Positions 5,350-16,144 of a stretch of 16,144 nt of DNA are shown one piece after another; position 1 is the first letter of the stretch, and each line of letters starts with the position of its first letter. The stretch comes from Chrysochromulina parva. Lineage: Eukaryota; Haptophyta; Prymnesiales; Chrysochromulinaceae. The position numbers and the translations under genes were made by a program. The notes below the pieces were generated by a model that saw only the letters and a program-made list of their open reading frames with translations, was not told the DNA's origin and searched no databases. Location of the stretch: NCBI GenBank assembly GCA_002887195.1, contig PJAB01001233.1:1-16144 (forward strand), written 5' to 3'.

Positions 5350-6975
5350 TCAAGGAGCGTCCGGTCGCTCGACGGCACCGGCCATGCCCATACCCTCGGC
5401 CGCCCTCGCCGCTTCCTCGCCCGCCGCGGCAATGGCCGCATCGAGTACGCCGCCCACGGATGCATGCACGCCATGGTGAGCGCCGATACGGTCGCCGTGG
5501 TGAGCGCCGTGGTGAGCACCGGGTTCCCCCGGGCTCCTCAGCGCGAGAGCGAGGCCGAGGCCGAGCAGCCCCAAACCCATCAGTACCGGGAGCATCAGAC
5601 TCGTGCCGATGGCGCCCGTCACGGCGCCCCCACGACTCGCCGGCGCGCCGTCCGCGCCACCATCCCCCCCACGTGCGCCCGCCTTGGCGCCGCCCGCGCC
5701 GCCCTTGGCGGTCGACACACTGGAGCTCGTGCGCGCCGTCCCGGCCGCCGGCAGCGCGCAGACGGAGTCGGCGAACGTCGCAACGAGAGGCTCAGCCTCG
5801 GGGCCGAGCTCGCGATCTCCGTCATCTCCCTCGCGAGATTGCATCTCGTGCCCGAGGAGCGCGTGCACCCGCTCGGCCACGTCACTCGCGTCCTCGTGGG
5901 CACCTAGGTAGTCGCACAGAGAGAGGTTGGTGCTTACCGGTACGTGCGCGCGCCGTGGCAGCGCGTGCGTGGCGCGCGCGTCGAGCGCGAATCGGCCGGC
6001 CGACCCCTTGGACGATGCGCCGTCGTGGGCGCCCCCCCCCTCGTCGTCCCCGTCCTCGTCGTCCTCATCCTCATCGGCCAGCTGCTCCAAAAGGAGCGGA
6101 ATGCGGGCGCGCAGTGTGCCGCACACGTCACGTCGGAGCTCGGCGAGAGCACTGCTGACCTCCGAGCGCGCGAGCACAAAGGCGCGCCCGTGCACCACGC
6201 CCACGAGCCGCACCGACGCCGCGGCCCCCGCCTGTGGGCGAAGCGCCGTCGTGGGCGATGCTGTGAAAAAGTCGACCCTGTGAGGGTTCGTCAACGAGCC
6301 GGAGGCGCCGGGCGCCGTGGTGAGCATGCCCTCGCTGGGCAGGGCGCCGTCCACCGTGGTGAGCGCGCTCGACAGCTCGGCCTCGATCGCGCCCAGCTGC
6401 TCCGCGAGCTGTGCCACGTGCGAGGCCGAGGCCGAGGCCGAGGCCGCCGCAGTATGCAGCCAGAGGGCCAAGTCCACTTGCCAGTCGCACGCGAAGCACA
6501 CGAGCTCGGGCGGCTTGGGCGACGTTTTCAGGTCGAGCGGCTGTAGCCGCACCGGCGGCGCCGCGGCGCAAGACTTGCACACGACCTTCTTAGCGTCCGA
6601 TGGTAGCAATAGCAAGACCGCGTGCGGCTCGCTCACACTTGGCGGGAGCCGCTTGGCGATCGCGTGCAGGACCTGCTGCAGCTTGGCCTCTTGCGGAGCG
6701 AGCTTGGCGTTGGGCGCGAAGACGTAGCAGCCGAGCACGACCACGCCCCCAGGAAGCATGCGCGACACCTGCACCGCGTGCTCGAGCATCCAATCTGGGT
6801 CGACGGCGACGGCCTTCACACCCTCCTCCTGCTCGGGAGTCGGCACGAATCGCAGCAGCGTGTCGGCCTTGGCGCCAGCCTGCGCGAGCAGCAGGCCGGT
6901 CTCGAAGGACTTGGTGCGCTGCAGCTTCTCGTGGTGCCCGAGCAGCGCGTCATCCGCGCTGAAAGCGCGTGGCAT
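5350..6975 (-). CDS. ODR4: ODR4 family membrane protein (odr-4 homologue)
   Basis: This is a 541-aa intronless protein from ATG 6975 to 5350; the frame extends to a GTG at 6999 but ATG is preferred. Family hallmarks run the whole length. ETGLLLAQ is at 25-32, and DPDWMLEHAVQVSRMLPGG followed by VVVLGCYVF spans 60-86. RAFVLARSEVSSALAELRRD is near 264-283, an acidic linker is near 300-312, and VPVSTNLSLCDYLG is at 345-358. A hydrophobic helix (about 455-479) forms the membrane anchor. ODR4 in animals is an ER membrane protein that helps deliver certain GPCRs to cilia and anchors the UFM1 protease UFSP2 at the ER. A role in UFMylation or receptor trafficking here is by homology only. Unlike the short tail I know from animal ODR4, about 62 residues follow the anchor, including GAHHG repeats and an Ala-rich helix. 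Confidence 0.9.
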   Translation of the reverse strand: MPRAFSADDALLGHHEKLQRTKSFETGLLLAQAGAKADTLLRFVPTPEQEEGVKAVAVDPDWMLEHAVQVSRMLPGGVVVLGCYVFAPNAKLAPQEAKLQQVLHAIAKRLPPSVSEPHAVLLLLPSDAKKVVCKSCAAAPPVRLQPLDLKTSPKPPELVCFACDWQVDLALWLHTAAASASASASHVAQLAEQLGAIEAELSSALTTVDGALPSEGMLTTAPGASGSLTNPHRVDFFTASPTTALRPQAGAAASVRLVGVVHGRAFVLARSEVSSALAELRRDVCGTLRARIPLLLEQLADEDEDDEDGDDEGGGAHDGASSKGSAGRFALDARATHALPRRAHVPVSTNLSLCDYLGAHEDASDVAERVHALLGHEMQSREGDDGDRELGPEAEPLVATFADSVCALPAAGTARTSSSVSTAKGGAGGAKAGARGGDGGADGAPASRGGAVTGAIGTSLMLPVLMGLGLLGLGLALALRSPGEPGAHHGAHHGDRIGAHHGVHASVGGVLDAAIAAAGEEAARAAEGMGMAGAVERPDAP

Positions 6976-7317
6976 CGCAAAAAGTGTTTCTATAAACACA
7001 GTTCACAGTGAAATCCTGTGAAGTGAGGAACCTTCGGCAAACGCAAAATAACCGGAATACTCGCGACCCTCTCCAATGAACAGTCGTGCAAAGCGGCCAG
7101 AACATGCAGGAAGCGCTTCCCCCGACGACATTGGCCGCCGGACACCTCTCAATTTGCCCGCCTTCCAGGGACAGCTGCGCCCCATGTTGCACACGCGAAT
7201 GGCCACCCGATGCCTGCGCAGCTCCGCAGCATGTGAGCGTCGTAATGAGCATCACAGCCACTGCCCCACTTCCCACACGTCGCTGCACGCCACGTGGCGC
7301 CGACGCGGCCAGTCGCG

Positions 7318-7615: not shown

Positions 7616-10600
7616 TCACGCGCTTGTCAAGGAGGGTGCCGGCACAGCCGGTATGCACCCCCCAGCTCCACATGCCGCCACCTCCATCGCCTCCACCTCC
7701 ATCGCCTCCATCGCCTTCGCCTCCATCGCCTTCGCCTCGATCGCCTTCACCTCGGCTACTGACGGCATTTCCACAGCGGCGGGGGTCAGCGAGTCGGCAA
7801 GGTCGGTCCTCGGAGTGCACAACTCGTTTGCACCCTCGGCGGCGGTCGACGGGGTGCGCGCCGCACTCGTCGCAACGGCGCCGCTACCGAAGAGAGTCTT
7901 GACCACTTCGAGGTCGCTCCCCTCGCCGCCGCTTCCGCCGACGCTTCCGGCGCTTCCGCCGCCGCTTCCGCCGCCGTTGCCACCGCTACAGTCCGGCGGC
8001 CCGAAGGAGAGTGGCGCTGCCGTGAGCGCAGGCGTCTCCAGAGCCGAGGGGCCGCTCAATACGGCGCTCGGAGGCGCGGGCGACGAGTCCGCAGGCGCGC
8101 TCGTGGGCGCTTCGGCCCCGGAGACGCCCTTGCCGTCGGATTTGGACAGGAGCCTCATGAAGTTGTTCTTGGCGATCTCCGCCTCGGCCTCCTCAACGCC
8201 CTGCTTGAAGCCGCGCACCGACGCGGGCTTCTTCTTCTGTGCCTCCTCAGCCTCCTTGAGGCACTTCTCCTTCCCTTCGGCCCACGGCATCGTGAGCTTG
8301 CAGTACCCGACCTGGTTCGTGCCGAAGTAGCGCACGAAGGTCCAGCCGCCCTCGCGCTTGTGGCGGTCGGGGCCCTGCGCCTCGCGCGCGACGATCGCCG
8401 GCCAGTACACGTAGCCCGCCTGCTTGGCCCAGACGATGGTGCCAAGTGGGCCAGCCGGCGGATCCTCCAAGTCGGCGTCCTCCTTGTCCTCCTTTGTGGG
8501 GGCATCGTCGCTCATCCGGGGCTGGTGCAGCTCCTTGCCGGCCTTGTCGGCGGACTTGGACAAGAACGAGCGCATGAAGTTGTTCTTGACGGCTGGATTT
8601 GCGACGCTGGCGGGCGCCGTGGCGGGCGCCGCAGAAGCGGCAGCGGCGGGCGCAGCAGGCGCGGCGGCCACTTGCACGTGCGCTGCGGCCGCCGCCTGAT
8701 CCTGCGCCTGCTCTTGCGCCTGCTCTTGCGCTGCGGCCGCCGCATGAGCCCTCGCCGACGCCTGCGCTGCTGCCAGCTGCATCCCGGCCAGAAGCGGCTT
8801 TCCGATCGGCGCGGCGGGCTGTTGCGCTAGAGGCGCCATCGCGACAGGCGTCGTCTCGAGCTCTTCGTACAGCCCGAGCTCCTTGAGCTTATCGGCATGG
8901 ACGATCCAGCACTTAGCGGCACTCTTGGGCGCACCGGCTGGCTGAGCATACTCGGCGATCGCGTTGATGGCCACCCTGATCTGCGCCTTGGATGCGGGCG
9001 GAGTGCCCTCCGGAGTACTGTCGAGGAACGCGTCGATCATCTTGGAGATCCCCTCCCGGCTGCGGTGCACCATCCGCGCAAGGCGTGGCATCTCGCAATC
9101 GACCACCGCCTTAGTGGACGGCCCGCGGATTCCGCCGCCGCCGCGGCTGCCGCCACCCGTCGCGACGCCCAGTCCGCCGTCAGCACCGGCGCCAGCTGCC
9201 GCCGCCGCGGCGCCACCGTCCGTCGCTGCGACGTCGTCTTCGAGAGACGGTGCCAGCTCTCCAGGCTGGAGCATCTCGGGCAGCAGCTGGACAGCACACA
9301 CCGAGAGGGCGGCGGGGACAATCAGTCGCAATCAGCATGCACTCAGTCGCAATCAGCATGCACCTGGACAGCACACGCCGAGAGGGCGGCGCGGGCCGCT
9401 TCGGTCGGCACGCCGCCGTCGGAGAGGCTCGCACACAGATGCAACATGGGCTCGCGCCGCGCCGTCTTGGCACCACCCAGCTCGGCAGCTTCGGCGGTCG
9501 CCCCCTCGGGTGTCTCGCCATCGGGGACCAGCCAGCCGTCTGCATTCTCCTCGTCGCTGAGTTCGTCGGCGTCCGCGTCGTCCTCGGATAGAAGCTCCTC
9601 CCCTTCGTCGCCTTCCTCCCAGCCATCCTGATGAGGGAGGCCATCAGAGCTCATTAGAGGCCATCATAGGCAGTCAGAGGCCATCAGAGCTCACATTAGA
9701 GGCCATCACAGGTCATCAGATGTCATCAGAGCTCGTTAGAGGCCATCAGCGCTCATTAGAGGCCAGCAAGGCAAATAGACGCCATCAGACATACCTCAGA
9801 GTCGTTCTCGTAGTCGAAGAGAGACGAGTCCCGACCGAAAGGCCGCCGGCGCGAGAGCGCTCCACTGCCCAAGCGTAGCGAGTCGAAGCTACGTGACGAC
9901 GCCACCAGCGCCGCCGTCGCCAATCCGTGGGACGCGCCCGACATCGCGCCCGGCACCGCGCCCGGCGCCGCGCCCGGCGCCGCGCCCGGTACCGCGCCCG
10001 TCGCGCCGACCTCAAAGCCGTCGTCGTCGGCGCCATCAGGCGCTGTGTCGGGCGCTGAAGAGTCTCCGAAGAGGAGCGAAGGCGCCGTCGCGGGCGCATC
10101 CTCGTCCATACTTGAGTCGATCCAGCCGTCGACGCTGGCGAGCGCCTCCGCCTCCGCCGCCTCGGCGGCGGCATGCAGCGCAAAGGACGCGTGCGTGAAG
10201 GTGCCGTGATAAGCCGGGCGCACGTCCTCATCGAACGCGAGAGTCTTCATGCGCGCCCACTGCCACGGCGCCGTGACGCTCAGCGTGCTGCTCAGCACAA
10301 CGCGCCGCCGCCGGTGCGCCGACCGTCGCAGGCTCGCGGGCGCGCGCGGCGGAGGGGGGTGGCTAGGCTGCTGCGCGAGGTACTCGAGCAGCGTTCCAAC
10401 ATAGGCCGATGCGCCTTTTGCCGTGGGCGGCGGCACGCGCAGCGGCGGCTCGGCGCCGAGCGTCGTCTCGGGCGCCAAGTAGAAAGGCTTCACTTCCTTG
10501 CCCCCACGCACAAAGATGCGGCCGGCCGAGGCTGACGTGCCAGGCGCGCCCTCAAGCGCGCCGGCGCCGGAGCCGACCGAGGCCACGCTGCCAACGGAAG

Positions 10601-11497
10601 TCTGGGCACCGCTGGCTGTGGCAGCACCGCTGGCTGCCCCTGCGACGTCGGCAGACGAGCCCCCCGCCGTGCCAGCAGCAGTGGGGGATCTCGACGGCAG
10701 AGGCGAGGCCGTTGCTGCCTCGGCCCCGCTATCCGTCCGAGGCACCTTGGCTGGCGGTTTCGCGCCAAAGAAGTTGGAGATGGACTGGCGCTTCTTTGCT
10801 TCCTCGAGCTTCTGCATCTGCTCGGCCTTGCGCTGCTCAATTAGACGCCTCTCCTCCTCCTTCTGACGAACCTCCTCTTGCTTCGCCTTCTCCTTGGCGA
10901 GGCGCTCGGCCTCTCTGTGGGCCTTCTCCTCCTCCTTCTCTGCCGCGCGCGCCGCCTTCTCGGCCTCCCGGATCAGCCGCTCCTGCTCCCTCGCGAGGCG
11001 CTCCGCCTCCTTGCGCTGGCGCGCCTCTTCACGCTCGGCCGCCTTGGCCGCCGCCTCCGCCACCCTCTGCAGGCGCGCCGCCTCCGTCTCAGCCGCCTTG
11101 GCCGCCGCCTCCGCCACCCTCTGCAGGCGTGCCACCTCCTTCTCCGCTCGCACCGCCACACCCTTGGGGGTGTCCTTGCGCGCCCGCTTGGACGCGTGCG
11201 CGGCGCCACCGCCGCCCGCCGCGGGCGCGCTGCGCTTCTTCAGGCTGCTGCTGCTGCTGCTGCCTTCTCCGCCGGCACGTGCTGGTCCATCGGCCATCGC
11301 CTGCTGCTGCACCTTGAGCTGCTCGGCACGGCGAGCGAGCGCTCGCAGCACGTGGAGGTCCGCGAGAGCAGTTGCCGAGCCAGCGGCCGCGAGAGCAACT
11401 TCCGCAAGCGCCTCCGTGTCGGGATCGGCGACGCCGCCGGCCGCATGGATGCCGGTGCCGGCGGCATCCGAGGGCGCTGAGTCCCCGTTTGCACCAT

Positions 11498-11538
<41 letters not shown>

Positions 11539-12755
11539 TCGTCAGCTGCCAACGGCATCGTGTCTAGCGGCAAAGGTGGCAGTGCTTCGGCCGGTAGGGT
11601 AGCGCGCGCGGCCTCGATGTGCGCGCGTAGCTGCGCCGCATCGAGCGCCATGAGCATCGCCTCCCGATCGCGAAAGTCCGTGACCAGCGTCTCGTCAAAG
11701 ATGTTATCGGATGGCTCCCAGGTGTTTGCATCCTCTCCATAGCCGCGCCAGACGATGAGGTACTCGGTCGTGCCGCCGGTGGCCGTGCGCTCGTCTACGA
11801 TCCCGGCCACCTCGAAAACCTCGTCGTCCTCGTCGTCCTCGTCGTCGACGCTCGCCTCCACGGGTGCACCCTCAGCACCGGTCGCCGAGTCAGCTTCTAG
11901 CTCCATCGGCGCCGCGCGCCCGGTCTCCGTCGCCGATGAGGCGGCGGCAGCGGCATCGGGTCCGGCTACGGTGGCGCCCACGACGGCGCCTTCGGCCGCC
12001 ACCGCCGCCTTGGGCATCACCTTGGCTGGCTTGGCGAAGAAATCCGCCGGGTTGATCGCCTGCTTGGACTTTGGCGCTGTCGTGAGCCCATGAGGACTGA
12101 CCGCCGTCGCTGCGGGTGCCGCGGCCGCGGCGGTCGTCGACGATCGCTCGGCACTCGGCGTGCCGCCGCTCGGCGTGCCGCCGCTCGGTGCGCTGCCGCT
12201 CGGTGCGCTGCCGCTCGGTGCGCTGCCGCCGCGCGGAAGGCCCTTGGCTTCCTCCTTCTTGTCTTCCTTGGGCTTCTTCGCCGGCGGCGGCAGGTTCTCG
12301 TGGACGCGCCAAGCGTCCTTGATTGAGCGCACCTTCTTGCCGGCCGGGCCCTCGTAGACGGTGTACGCACCACTCGGGGGCTCGTGGCGCACGGCCACCC
12401 ACCCAGGCGGCAGCTCTTTGCTCGCTTGCGCCGGCGGCTTGGCCGGCGGCCAAGGAAGTGGGGCCGTCGCCGCCGGAGCCGCACCCGCGGCATCCGACGA
12501 GGTGGCCGTCGCTGGTGGGGCGGGCGGCTGGATCCAGTCTTCGCCGCGACTCACGTAGAGCACGTCGTTATCCTCGATCAGCTCAAACTCCTCCTCGTGG
12601 ATCTCGGCGGCGTTCTGCGTGAAGATGCGCTTTGCGCCAAAACCCTCGCCCAGCTTGACGTCGGCGAGCTTGAGCAGACCGGCGTAGGTCTCGGGCAGCT
12701 TGACGAGATAGCTGGGCGTCACGACGCCGTTGGCGCGCAGCGTGACGCGCGGCAT
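7616..12755 (-). CDS. CAF-1 large subunit (p150/FAS1/Cac1-like) with added chromodomain, MBD-like and PWWP domains; three exons
   Basis: The exons are 12755-9795, 9627-9364 and 9286-7616, giving 1631 aa; both introns are phase 0. CAF-1 deposits new H3-H4 behind PCNA at replication forks and repair sites. In order: doublecortin-like domain 1-75; MBD-like segment 115-155; Gly/Ser/Pro repeats 176-202; acidic run 304-312 and chromodomain 313-365 (aromatic cage candidates F314, W336, W346); Ala13 tract 407-419; Lys/Glu/Arg coiled coil 536-656; PIP-like RQSISNFF 656-663. The CAF1A signature MKTLAFDEDVRPAYHGTF is at 836-853 and RRPFGRDSSLFDYENDSE at 970-987, continuing across intron 1 into DGWEEGDEGEEL. 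The C-terminal winged helix is at about 1145-1214 and ends in KELGL. The PWWP is at about 1356-1420 (GTIVWAKQAGYVYWPAIV). The start is the ATG at 12755; the frame opens upstream only to a TTG at 12830. CAF-1 identity is firm; the reader functions are inferred from domain type. Confidence 0.93.
9287..9363 (-). other. CAF-1 intron 2 (77 nt), built from duplicated exon end
   Basis: The GT at 9363-9362 and AG at 9288-9287 join two reading frames in phase 0 (CAG then CTG CTG). Reading through instead meets TGA after six codons, and 77 is not a multiple of three. The last 28 nt of the intron (9287-9314) copy the last 28 nt of the upstream exon (9364-9391) with one mismatch. The other 49 nt hold two identical 21-nt units. 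Confidence 0.85.
9322..9363. repeat. Two identical 21-bp units inside CAF-1 intron 2
   Basis: Positions 9322-9342 and 9343-9363 are identical. On the minus strand each begins GTGCATGCTGATTGCGACTG, so the intron's 5' splice site sequence is itself duplicated. Confidence 0.95.
9628..9794 (-). other. CAF-1 intron 1 (167 nt), tandem-repeat intron
   Basis: The donor is GAG|GTATGT (GT at 9794-9793) and the acceptor CTCATCAG|GATGG (AG at 9629-9628). Joining is phase 0 and turns FDYENDSE into FDYENDSE-DGWEEGDEGEEL, the expected CAF1A acidic region. Almost all of the intron is a degenerate array of a roughly 20-nt unit. Confidence 0.9.
9641..9790. repeat. Degenerate roughly 20-bp tandem array in CAF-1 intron 1
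   Basis: About seven to eight units are visible. In the sense of the gene the best units read close to CTCTGATGGCCTCTAATGAG. Unit lengths vary from about 10 to 22. CTAAT or CTAAC recurs in several units and is branch-point-like. Confidence 0.9.
11041..11129. repeat. 54-bp repeat in the CAF-1 coiled coil
   Basis: Positions 11041-11075 recur at 11095-11129, a period of 54 bp. On the minus strand this gives two copies of an 18-residue helical unit, ARLQRVAEAAAKAAETEA, within the Lys/Glu/Arg coiled coil. Confidence 0.9.
11498..11538. repeat. GGC triplet run encoding the Ala13 tract
   Basis: About 13 GGC/GCC triplets encode the alanine tract at residues 407-419 of the CAF-1-like protein, between the chromodomain and the coiled coil. 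Confidence 0.9.
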
Positions 12756-14016: not shown

Positions 14017-16144
14017 TTACCCGCGCCATACGCTCTCGCTCGAGCCGCCAGTGCCGTTGCAACAGGGAGCCAACGACGACGCCATGGGCGGCGCCACGCC
14101 ATTGCTGAAGGGCGAAAAGGTAGACGCTGGCGGCGGCGCTGCGCCATTGCTAAAGGGTGCAAACGAAGACACCGAAGGCGGCGCGCCGTTCCCAAACGGT
14201 GCAAACGAAGACATCGGCGGCGCCTGCTGCTGCTGCTGCTGCTGCTGCTGCCGCAGCTGTTGCAGCTGCGTCTGCTGCTGCTGGTACTGCTGGTACTGCT
14301 GGTACTGCTGCTGCTGCTGGTACTGCGGCTCCGATTGATGCTGCTGGTACTGCGGTTGCGGCTGCGGCTGCGGCTGCTTGTAATGCTGCGCCTGCAGCTG
14401 CTCGTAATGCTGCGCCGAAACTGTGTGCTGCATCGACGAAGCCGACGAAACTGTGTGCTGCATCGACGCCGCAACCGCGTTCGCCGCGGCGGCGGCCGCC
14501 GCTGCCTCCACTGCCACCCGCTCGACGCTCTTCTTTTCCTTGGGAGGCCGTCCACGCGGCCGCTTGATCGCGCCCGGCACGGCGGCGGGCTGCAATTGAA
14601 CTGGCTCCCACCGGTATCGGGCTGCCGCCTGAGCGGGCGCTGTGGCGGGCGCGGCGGGCGCTGTGGCGGGCGCGGCGGGCGCGGACGTGCCGTAGGGTTT
14701 CGAATATTGGCGAGCTGCGGCGATGGCGTTGGCGGCGCCCGCGACAGCGTAGGCGGCGGTGAAGACGGCATCTACCCTTTCCGAGCACGAAGAGCTCAAC
14801 GGAGCCAAGGCCGTTGCGCCGCCCTGCTGCATGGCTTGCGGCGGCGGCTGTGAAAGGCTCTCCCGAGGGTCCGCTACGGCTGTGAAAGTGCCCATGACGG
14901 CGCGCCCCATCTGCTCCTGGCTCTCGAGGCCATTGACGAAGGGATTTGGCGGGAAGAGGGCATACTGCGGCGCTGCCTCGTGACGAACCTCATGGCCCAT
15001 TGACGAACCCATCGGCGGGCAGGGCTGCATGGAGGGCTGGATGGAGGGCTGCATGGAGGGCTGGATGGAGGGCTGCATGGAGGGCTGCATGGAGCGCGGG
15101 GGCGGCTCGTACCCCGTCCAGCCTGGATGATGTTGGGGTAGGCCCATGGCGACCGCATGACGAGCCTCATGGGCCATTGACGAACCATTTGGCGGCCCCA
15201 TGAAGACCCCGTACGATCCGAACTGGTGCGGCGCGAGCGGTGACGAGGGCGGCGCTTGTGGTGAGCCTTCACACGCGTCGGACTCGCTCGCGACGGCGCT
15301 CGCGACGGTGGAGGGGCGTTGCGTCTGGTCGCCCAGGTCCGCAGCTGATGCGGAGGCCGGGTACTTGGCAGCCGGGAGTGCCTGTGACGAAACTGACGAA
15401 ATGGCCGGGTACTTGGCAGCCGGGAGTGCCTGTGTGAGATGGACGTTGGCCGGCGTCGCGTACCTCGCGTAGCACAAGGCTGCCTCCTCCGGCGTTTGGT
15501 AGGTGCCCAGCTCGGCGCTTGGAAGGTGGCGCAGCTTGCCAGTCTCGCTCGTCTGGACTTTGCACAGGCCGCGATCCTTGGAGCCGCCCTTGAAGCCCGT
15601 CTCGCAGCTCGACTTGGAGCTCGACGACAGCATCAGCCCTATCCGCTCGGCCGCCGCGAACGCGCGGACTTCGTCCGCCGTGAGTGGTGGTGGCTGGGTC
15701 GACTTCTGTGAATGTGAATGGGATCCCGTCCGGGCGTGCGAGGGAGCGCCGCCCTGAGCACCCGCATGCACCTCACCGGTAGGCGACTCGGCGTGTGAGG
15801 GGGCATGCGACCGGTGAGGTGCATGCAGGTGCTCGGGACGGCGCTCCAGCGCCCCCGCATGCGACGCATCGGCTGCTGCTGCCCCGTCCACTGCTGCGCC
15901 GCAAGCGAAGAGCGCAAGCATGCTCGCTGCTGCGTCGTGCACCTCCACCCTCTCCCGCTCAACGGACTTGGCCTGTTCCCCGCCGTCCTGGGCACCGCCG
16001 TCCTGGGCACCGCCGTCCTGGGCACCGCCGTCGTGGGCACCGCCCAGCCCGCCGTCGTGGGCACCGCCCAGCCCGCCGTCGTGGGCACCGCCCAGCCCGC
16101 CGTCGTGGGCACCGCCCAGCCCGCCGTCGTGGGCACCGCCCAGC
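14017..16144 (-). CDS. AP2-domain, AT-hook, Gln-rich transcription-factor-like protein, 5' end open at the edge
   Basis: The stop is TAA at 14017-14019. The frame is open to the right edge: the first in-window ATG is 15921, but in-frame coding-type sequence continues through Gly/Ala/Asp repeats to 16144, so the start is probably outside. Domains in order: a Gly-rich repeat N-terminus; a His/Ala-rich segment; one AP2/ERF-type DNA-binding domain at about 15627-15454, with TGFKGGSKDRGLCKVQ, a KLRHL strand and LGTYQTPEEAALCYARYA; low-complexity linkers; an AT-hook KRPRGRPPKEKK near 14535-14570 for AT-rich minor-groove binding; and a Gln-rich tract with Q9. Four APP-x-SSFAPF-x-NG repeats end the protein. 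It is likely a nuclear transcription regulator; targets are unknown. Neither nuclear localisation nor activation was tested beyond composition. Confidence 0.87.
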   Translation of the reverse strand, partial: LGGAHDGGLGGAHDGGLGGAHDGGLGGAHDGGLGGAHDGGAQDGGAQDGGAQDGGEQAKSVERERVEVHDAAASMLALFACGAAVDGAAAADASHAGALERRPEHLHAPHRSHAPSHAESPTGEVHAGAQGGAPSHARTGSHSHSQKSTQPPPLTADEVRAFAAAERIGLMLSSSSKSSCETGFKGGSKDRGLCKVQTSETGKLRHLPSAELGTYQTPEEAALCYARYATPANVHLTQALPAAKYPAISSVSSQALPAAKYPASASAADLGDQTQRPSTVASAVASESDACEGSPQAPPSSPLAPHQFGSYGVFMGPPNGSSMAHEARHAVAMGLPQHHPGWTGYEPPPRSMQPSMQPSIQPSMQPSIQPSMQPCPPMGSSMGHEVRHEAAPQYALFPPNPFVNGLESQEQMGRAVMGTFTAVADPRESLSQPPPQAMQQGGATALAPLSSSCSERVDAVFTAAYAVAGAANAIAAARQYSKPYGTSAPAAPATAPAAPATAPAQAAARYRWEPVQLQPAAVPGAIKRPRGRPPKEKKSVERVAVEAAAAAAAANAVAASMQHTVSSASSMQHTVSAQHYEQLQAQHYKQPQPQPQPQYQQHQSEPQYQQQQQYQQYQQYQQQQTQLQQLRQQQQQQQQQAPPMSSFAPFGNGAPPSVSSFAPFSNGAAPPPASTFSPFSNGVAPPMASSLAPCCNGTGGSSESVWRG
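14053..14223. repeat. Four protein repeats at the C-terminus of the AP2 protein
   Basis: Four units of 13-15 residues follow one another on the minus strand: APPMSSFAPFGNG, APPSVSSFAPFSNG, AAPPPASTFSPFSNG and VAPPMASSLAPCCNG. The core SSFAPFSNG is conserved and the last unit is the most divergent. Confidence 0.9.
14224..14335. repeat. CTG triplet and CTG/GTA array encoding a poly-Gln region
   Basis: Nine CTG triplets (14224-14250) encode Q9 on the minus strand, followed by repeated QQY and QQQ units further up. Confidence 0.9.
14979..15190. repeat. Duplicated MxHExRHE segment flanking the 12-bp array
   Basis: Two imperfect copies of about 32 bp (near 14980-15012 and 15155-15188) encode GSSMGHEVRHEAA and GSSMAHEARHAVA in the AP2 protein. 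They flank the 12-bp tandem array, so an older, larger duplication may have preceded the array. Confidence 0.75.
15023..15094. repeat. 12-bp tandem repeat, six copies
   Basis: Six units of GGCTGCATGGAG or GGCTGGATGGAG encode alternating MQPS and IQPS on the minus strand in the linker of the AP2 protein. Confidence 0.95.
15355..15434. repeat. 32-bp direct repeat, two copies, 48-bp period
   Basis: Positions 15355-15386 and 15403-15434 are identical. Both encode QALPAAKYPA, just downstream of the AP2 domain, and the 48-bp period keeps the frame. Confidence 0.93.
15981..16144. repeat. 15-bp then 24-bp in-frame minisatellite at the right edge
   Basis: Four 15-bp units (15981-16040; the fourth changes CCT to CGT) are followed by nearly five 24-bp units (16027-16144, sharing the same core) running off the edge. 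On the minus strand they encode GGAQD-type and GGAHDGGL-type repeats in frame with the AP2 protein. The 24-bp unit looks like the 15-bp unit plus a 9-bp insertion. Confidence 0.93.

Follow-up and report, generated by a model that had tools for sequence, protein, structure and literature searches.

In the large subunits of chromatin assembly factor 1 (CAF-1) from human (CHAF1A/p150), yeast (Cac1) and plants (FAS1), a KER/acidic region, a pair of CAF1A_dimeriz parts with an acidic stretch, and a winged-helix region follow one another in that order. The p150, Cac1 and FAS1 proteins are not known to carry a KHA domain, a chromodomain or a PWWP domain. A gene of the haptophyte Chrysochromulina parva, on contig PJAB01001233.1, encodes a predicted protein with the same CAF-1 parts in the same order, the winged-helix region being putative, to which KHA, a chromodomain, PWWP and perhaps an MBD-like segment have been added. 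The window analyzed here is that entire contig (C1233; 16,144 bases), from an assembly of 45.07 Mb in 2,199 contigs.

Mammalian CAF-1 offers the closest functional parallel. According to PMC3852060, PCNA brings CAF-1 to replication sites, CAF-1 handles HP1, and CAF-1 joins SETDB1 in a complex that depends on MBD1, such that CAF-1 is tied to chromodomain and MBD proteins at replication. The mammalian readers are separate proteins, whereas here the chromodomain (and possibly the MBD-like segment) lies inside the large subunit. CAF-1 in protists is a subject of PMC4751559. In the part of PMC3457860 covered, which deals with plant and animal PWWP genes, the terms "CAF-1", "chromatin assembly" and "FAS1" never appear. 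Among the titles and abstract openings listed for open-licence papers, none describes the fusion of a chromodomain or PWWP to the large subunit of CAF-1.

The reading proposed here is that the locus encodes a CAF-1 large subunit (p150/Cac1) in which a chromodomain precedes the KER region and a PWWP follows the winged-helix region, and that these readers would anchor the complex to parental nucleosomes that are methylated. Its probability is put at roughly 0.6.

A three-exon CAF-1 gene

The gene and all of its features described below lie on the minus strand. Exons at 12755-9795, 9627-9364 and 9286-7619 join into a single frame of 1,631 codons, which runs from the first in-frame ATG at 12755 to a stop at 7618-7616 once two GT-AG introns are removed, in agreement with the one three-exon gene proposed by the initial annotation. 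Exon 1 (9795-12755), called from the open frame and splicing, encodes 987 amino acids with KHA, the MBD-like segment, the chromodomain, KER, the PIP-like motif and the start of CAF1A_dimeriz. Exon 2 (9364-9627; 88 amino acids) holds the remainder of CAF1A_dimeriz and a DGWLVPDG motif, and exon 3 (7616-9286; 556 amino acids and the stop) holds the winged-helix region and PWWP. Each large exon contains both CAF-1 and reader parts within one open frame, as had been claimed.

Domains were called by Pfam profiles with curated cut-offs on the spliced protein, single exons or segments. Chromo, CAF1A_acidic (barely), CAF1A_dimeriz and PWWP exceed their cut-offs on the spliced protein. The order of parts is KHA (residues 3-68), the MBD-like segment (115-153), the chromodomain (314-364), KER/acidic (536-675) with the PIP-like motif (656-663), CAF1A_dimeriz (837-862 and 967-1014), the winged-helix region (1134-1215) and PWWP (1357-1445).

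Evidence that the protein is a CAF-1 large subunit comes from CAF1A_dimeriz and CAF1A_acidic, both over cut-off, together with an alignment to human CAF1A. CAF1A_dimeriz matches the spliced protein with E 1.1e-11 and 45.2 bits (cut-off 25). Its first part (10170-10247), beginning KTLAFDEDVRPAYHGTF, was called by Pfam and by the human alignment; its second is divided between exon 1 (residues 967-987; 9795-9857), ending DYENDSE, and exon 2 (residues 988-1014), beginning DGWEEGDEGEEL. The CAF1A motifs and acidic stretch align to human CAF1A over the exon 1-2 junction (E 8.8e-7): the joined DYENDSE|DGWEEGDEGEEL is within the alignment, and DGWLVPDG stands opposite the human DGFFVPHG. A six-frame search of the possibly incomplete assembly gave no other CAF1A_dimeriz match at E <= 0.001.

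The KER-type charged region (residues 536-655; 10791-11150), recognized by composition and by CAF1A_acidic at residues 551-675, likewise stands as first annotated. Lysine, glutamate and arginine make up 54% of it, against 19% of the whole protein, and CAF1A_acidic scores E 6.1e-6 and 26.5 bits on the spliced protein (cut-off 26.4) and 28.1 bits on exon 1 alone. Directly after it lies RQSISNFF (residues 656-663; 10767-10790), which a motif scan picked out along with two other hits to a relaxed PIP pattern. The motif is non-canonical, with no Q at position 1.

The winged-helix region (8867-9112) was assigned from a Pfam Cac1_C match at residues 1141-1190 that is below its cut-off of 24.3 bits, with E 0.22 on the whole protein and E 0.0018 (18.7 bits) on a 91-residue segment. 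As a control for chance, 10 shuffled segments (five winged-helix, five MBD-like) were scanned, and none of the 10 gave a Pfam match at E <= 10. A PDB sequence search with the winged helix returned just two chance-like matches (E 0.64 and 4), and NCBIfam gave no match for six stretches of the locus. The proposed C-terminal winged helix is favored by the segment-level match and by its shuffled controls (0 of 5), and disfavored by the sub-threshold score and a poor fold model.

The two introns are supported in different ways. Intron 1 (9628-9794; 167 nt), mostly a tandem array of a unit of about 20 nt, is independently supported because its removal raises the CAF1A_dimeriz score from 23.1 bits on exon 1 alone to 45.2 bits and because the resulting junction aligns to human CAF1A; if it is retained, the protein ends at 999 amino acids. 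Intron 2 (9287-9363; 77 nt) was called from its GT-AG ends, the downstream Cac1_C signature (below cut-off) and a repeat structure at the exon end. Its 3' end duplicates the end of exon 2 at 26 of 27 nt, such that it looks like an intron gained through tandem duplication, judging by the repeats. An intron made in this way in potato is reported in PMC4974935. A 21-nt unit is also present twice at the start of intron 2 (within 9287-9390).

Retention of intron 2 alone would end the protein at 1,081 amino acids, and this raises the possibility that the locus makes two products, either because intron 2 is often retained, leaving a CAF-1 protein with the chromodomain and without the winged helix and PWWP, or because exon 3 is a separate gene. 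The short length and repeat structure of intron 2 are in keeping with this idea. However, the Cac1_C signature of exon 3, while below cut-off, falls in the expected order, and intron 2 has GT-AG ends and a length that is not a multiple of 3. In addition, the repeat of the exon 2 end is as in a tandem-duplication intron, and removal of such an intron would therefore restore the older frame. Two separate products are considered very unlikely.

The N-terminus and the two readers

The N-terminus had been annotated as doublecortin-like. It instead matches KHA (residues 3-68; 12552-12749), by its Pfam name the dimerization domain of potassium channels, with 33.1 bits on the N-terminal 160 amino acids, 29.5 bits on exon 1 and 28.7 bits on the whole protein (cut-off 29.6). 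There is also a weak alignment to the plant channel AKT5 (E 0.47). Doublecortin was rejected in favor of KHA; the sole doublecortin-type match was to Ubiquitin_DCDC1, with E 1.6. The MBD-like segment (residues 115-153; 12297-12413) is retained as a weak assignment, with a Pfam MBD match of E 0.14 and 12.2 bits, below the cut-off of 21. Its L1 loop is presumably shorter than in classical MBDs. The structure model of the N-terminus was unusable, with a predicted local distance difference test (pLDDT) score of 37.9.

Both readers named by the initial annotation are clear. The chromodomain, which precedes the KER coiled coil (residues 314-364; 11664-11816), matches Pfam with E 1.1e-11, and its PDB relatives are CBX4 (the best, E 2.7e-10), CDY and HP1. 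Its aromatic residues F314, W336 and Y339 occupy all three cage positions. The PWWP, after the winged-helix region (8177-8443), matches Pfam with E 8.8e-13, and Y1367, W1370 and Y1395 occupy all three cage positions; the cage positions of both readers are those of known structures. PDB matches to the PWWP are DNMT3B (E 1.1e-5, from a chain with the domain twice), LEDGF (0.0015), HDGF (0.0016) and MSH6 (0.0033). MSH6, with its PIP and PWWP, is an H3K36me3 reader linked to replication. It resembles the protein studied here in being replication-linked with a PWWP, and differs in serving mismatch repair rather than acting as a chaperone. Taken together, the initial annotation is sustained for CAF-1 identity and for fusion to a chromodomain and a PWWP; KHA takes the place of doublecortin, the MBD-like segment is weak and the PIP-like motif is non-canonical.

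A shared PWWP cassette and its genome context

The DNA encoding the PWWP is shared with two other genes. A 326-bp cassette at 8169-8494 shares 95.4% identity with a gene on C605. A gene on C290 shows 92.2% identity across the 293 bp of 8461-8169, and an additional match of 64 bp (84%) to C290 reaches 8517. The cassette is about 330-350 bp, and both genes are otherwise unlike the CAF-1 gene. PWWP is the only Pfam match within the 866 amino acids scanned of the C605 gene. The C290 product is a DEK_C-PWWP-HMG-box protein, with no CAF-1 family matched in the 629 amino acids scanned. A genome search with exon 3 DNA, in which 40 of 57 candidates were scored, yielded 68 matches; among the matches listed, only C605 and C290 cover the cassette besides the window itself, and the others are short, outside the cassette and mostly in repetitive parts of the exon. 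In an equivalent comparison, the N-terminal 1.66 kb that includes the chromodomain matched, besides itself, only short pieces of 28-92 bp, and recent copying of this region was rejected.

Identity ends abruptly at the downstream edge of the cassette. Sequence comparison identified imperfect direct repeats on both sides, each starting AAGAACAACTTCATG (at 8587 and 8170). The upstream repeat (AAGAACAACTTCATG, KNNFMRSFLSKS) is at 8573-8587 and the downstream repeat (KNNFMRLLSKS) at 8156-8170. Over 97 codons, the rates of nonsynonymous (dN) and synonymous (dS) substitution are 0.027 and 0.098 between the window and C605, 0.070 and 0.131 between the window and C290, and 0.077 and 0.106 between C605 and C290. 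In all three gene copies, the 97 compared codons are open and the cage residues are the same. Because the DNA is 95% and 92% identical to two different genes, with dS about 0.1, the PWWP appears to have been exchanged recently, and it either entered CAF-1 as a DNA cassette or was overwritten by gene conversion.

A near-repeat of this kind in an assembly of 2,199 contigs could also have misled the assembler, so that the shared cassette linked exon 3 to a PWWP from another gene. This was tested and judged unlikely; indeed, such a chimera is given the lowest probability of the explanations considered. The longest exact runs shared with the other copies are just 61 and 38 nt, and along the whole of the window cassette there are substitutions, six in all, that neither known copy has, which means that the cassette was not pieced together from those two. 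A 15-nt string is also present on both sides of the cassette and nowhere else in the window.

Components that the proposed function would call upon are encoded elsewhere in the genome. A p48 gene is present on C1796 (CAF1C_H4-bd, E 9.7e-31), and a CAF1B/HIR1-type propeller gene of the p60/HIRA type on C1921 (E 2.1e-102, over cut-off), which, compared by eye with known sequence, looks like CAF1B rather than HIRA. Histone H3 on C710 has K4, K9, K27 and K36 in canonical contexts. The genome has one Pre-SET match and one AWS match, which are presumably tied to H3K9 and H3K36 writing, respectively.

Counting the CAF-1 gene's own domains, the genome has 10 PWWP, 46 chromodomain and 2 KHA matches. 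The scan of open reading frames (ORFs) took in 29 of the 45 chromodomain matches outside this gene and all nine such PWWP matches; because many of these ORFs are truncated where the 3-kb loci end, the fusion counts that follow are lower bounds. An additional Pfam family is matched at E <= 0.001 in at least 16 of the 29 chromodomain ORFs, and in 13 of these the match clears the cut-off of the family. Partners over cut-off are CXXC, PHD, CW, SET, SNF2, DEK_C, chromoshadow, MBT/Tudor-knot and LysM, and three ORFs have partners below cut-off (Tudor_5, YABBY_N and Stc1). Among the nine PWWP ORFs, at least four have a further family: HMG/DEK_C, homeodomain, PHD and Tudor, the last below cut-off. The homeodomain fusion (on C1311) has a PWWP 42% identical over 99 amino acids to that of CAF-1. 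An HP1-like ORF on C482 has, besides its chromodomain, a partial match to chromoshadow and one to ARID that falls slightly short of the cut-off. A retrotransposon origin of the chromodomains was rejected: the ORFs scanned at 29 of 45 other matches, many of them truncated, contain neither an integrase nor a reverse transcriptase family.

These surveys bear on another explanation, in which the fusion is real and the additions are general DNA or nucleosome tethers, with PWWP placed next to the winged helix and the chromodomain binding in a general way, or have accreted neutrally, and no mark is selected. A cassette shared with two otherwise different genes is consistent with this explanation, as is the wide fusion of readers in the genome (over cut-off in 13 chromodomain and three PWWP ORFs). 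The dN/dS ratios of the PWWP copies, 0.28-0.73, point the same way. Accretion of readers without function is possible on these sequence data because dN/dS is just moderately low and PWWP and chromodomain matches are many. However, both readers have an aromatic residue at every cage position, those of PWWP being present in both other copies too, and two different readers are each in frame with the chaperone. Tethering or accretion is considered rather unlikely, and is nonetheless the strongest competitor to methylated-nucleosome retention.

Elsewhere in the window, also on the minus strand, the adjoining gene at 5353-7002 is ODR4-like (Pfam E 3.3e-54). A 708-amino-acid open frame at 14017-16143, at the contig end, has an AT-hook-like KRPRGRPPK and a stretch that by eye resembles an AP2-type domain; Pfam gave no significant match to it. 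Rfam and tRNA scans of the window found nothing.

A proposed mechanism and its meaning

In the proposed mechanism, the chaperone parts would bind H3-H4 and assemble with p60 and p48, and the PIP-like motif could contact PCNA. The chromodomain (of H3K9me or H3K27me type) and PWWP (of H3K36me type) would then bind methyl-lysine and, behind the fork, keep CAF-1 attached to parental nucleosomes that are methylated, such that new H3-H4 would be delivered at replication where the mark is already present. The readers would act in cis as HP1 binding acts in trans in mammals, and the N-terminal KHA might add dimerization. Coupling of H3-H4 deposition to mark reading is plausible, and would fit the H3, Pre-SET and AWS of this genome.

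Several observations weigh against this proposal. The motif scan of the protein found no canonical PIP box. The alignment to CAF1A is partly acidic low-complexity sequence, for which the bias amounts to 13 bits where the stretch scores 24.5 bits. The winged helix is under the Pfam cut-off in both Cac1_C scans, its single-sequence fold model is poor (pLDDT 54.6), and of the 40 Foldseek matches to that model at E <= 10, none reached E <= 0.001. The modest constraint on the PWWP copies and the abundance of both readers in the genome count here as well, and no relatives were confirmed in viral and prokaryote contig collections.

A broader version of the retention model is that a single polypeptide reads and deposits, sensing parental H3 methylation of two kinds during deposition (K9/K27 by the chromodomain and K36 by PWWP), with a PWWP specificity that could be swapped as a DNA cassette travelling between chromatin genes. 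This version is tentative, and the balance is somewhat against it.

Work on the still open question of how chromatin state survives replication has usually dealt with readers separate from CAF-1, and a natural fusion provides a test of whether reading marks and depositing histones in one molecule helps. The fused chromodomain matches the HP1-CAF-1 contact of mammals and would independently support the importance of that contact. In the PWWP cassette, reader shuffling can be seen in the DNA itself, and the exchange is recent enough (dS about 0.1) for the boundaries of the cassette to be studied. If the proposal is confirmed, histone placement and the sensing of existing chromatin state would take place within one molecule.

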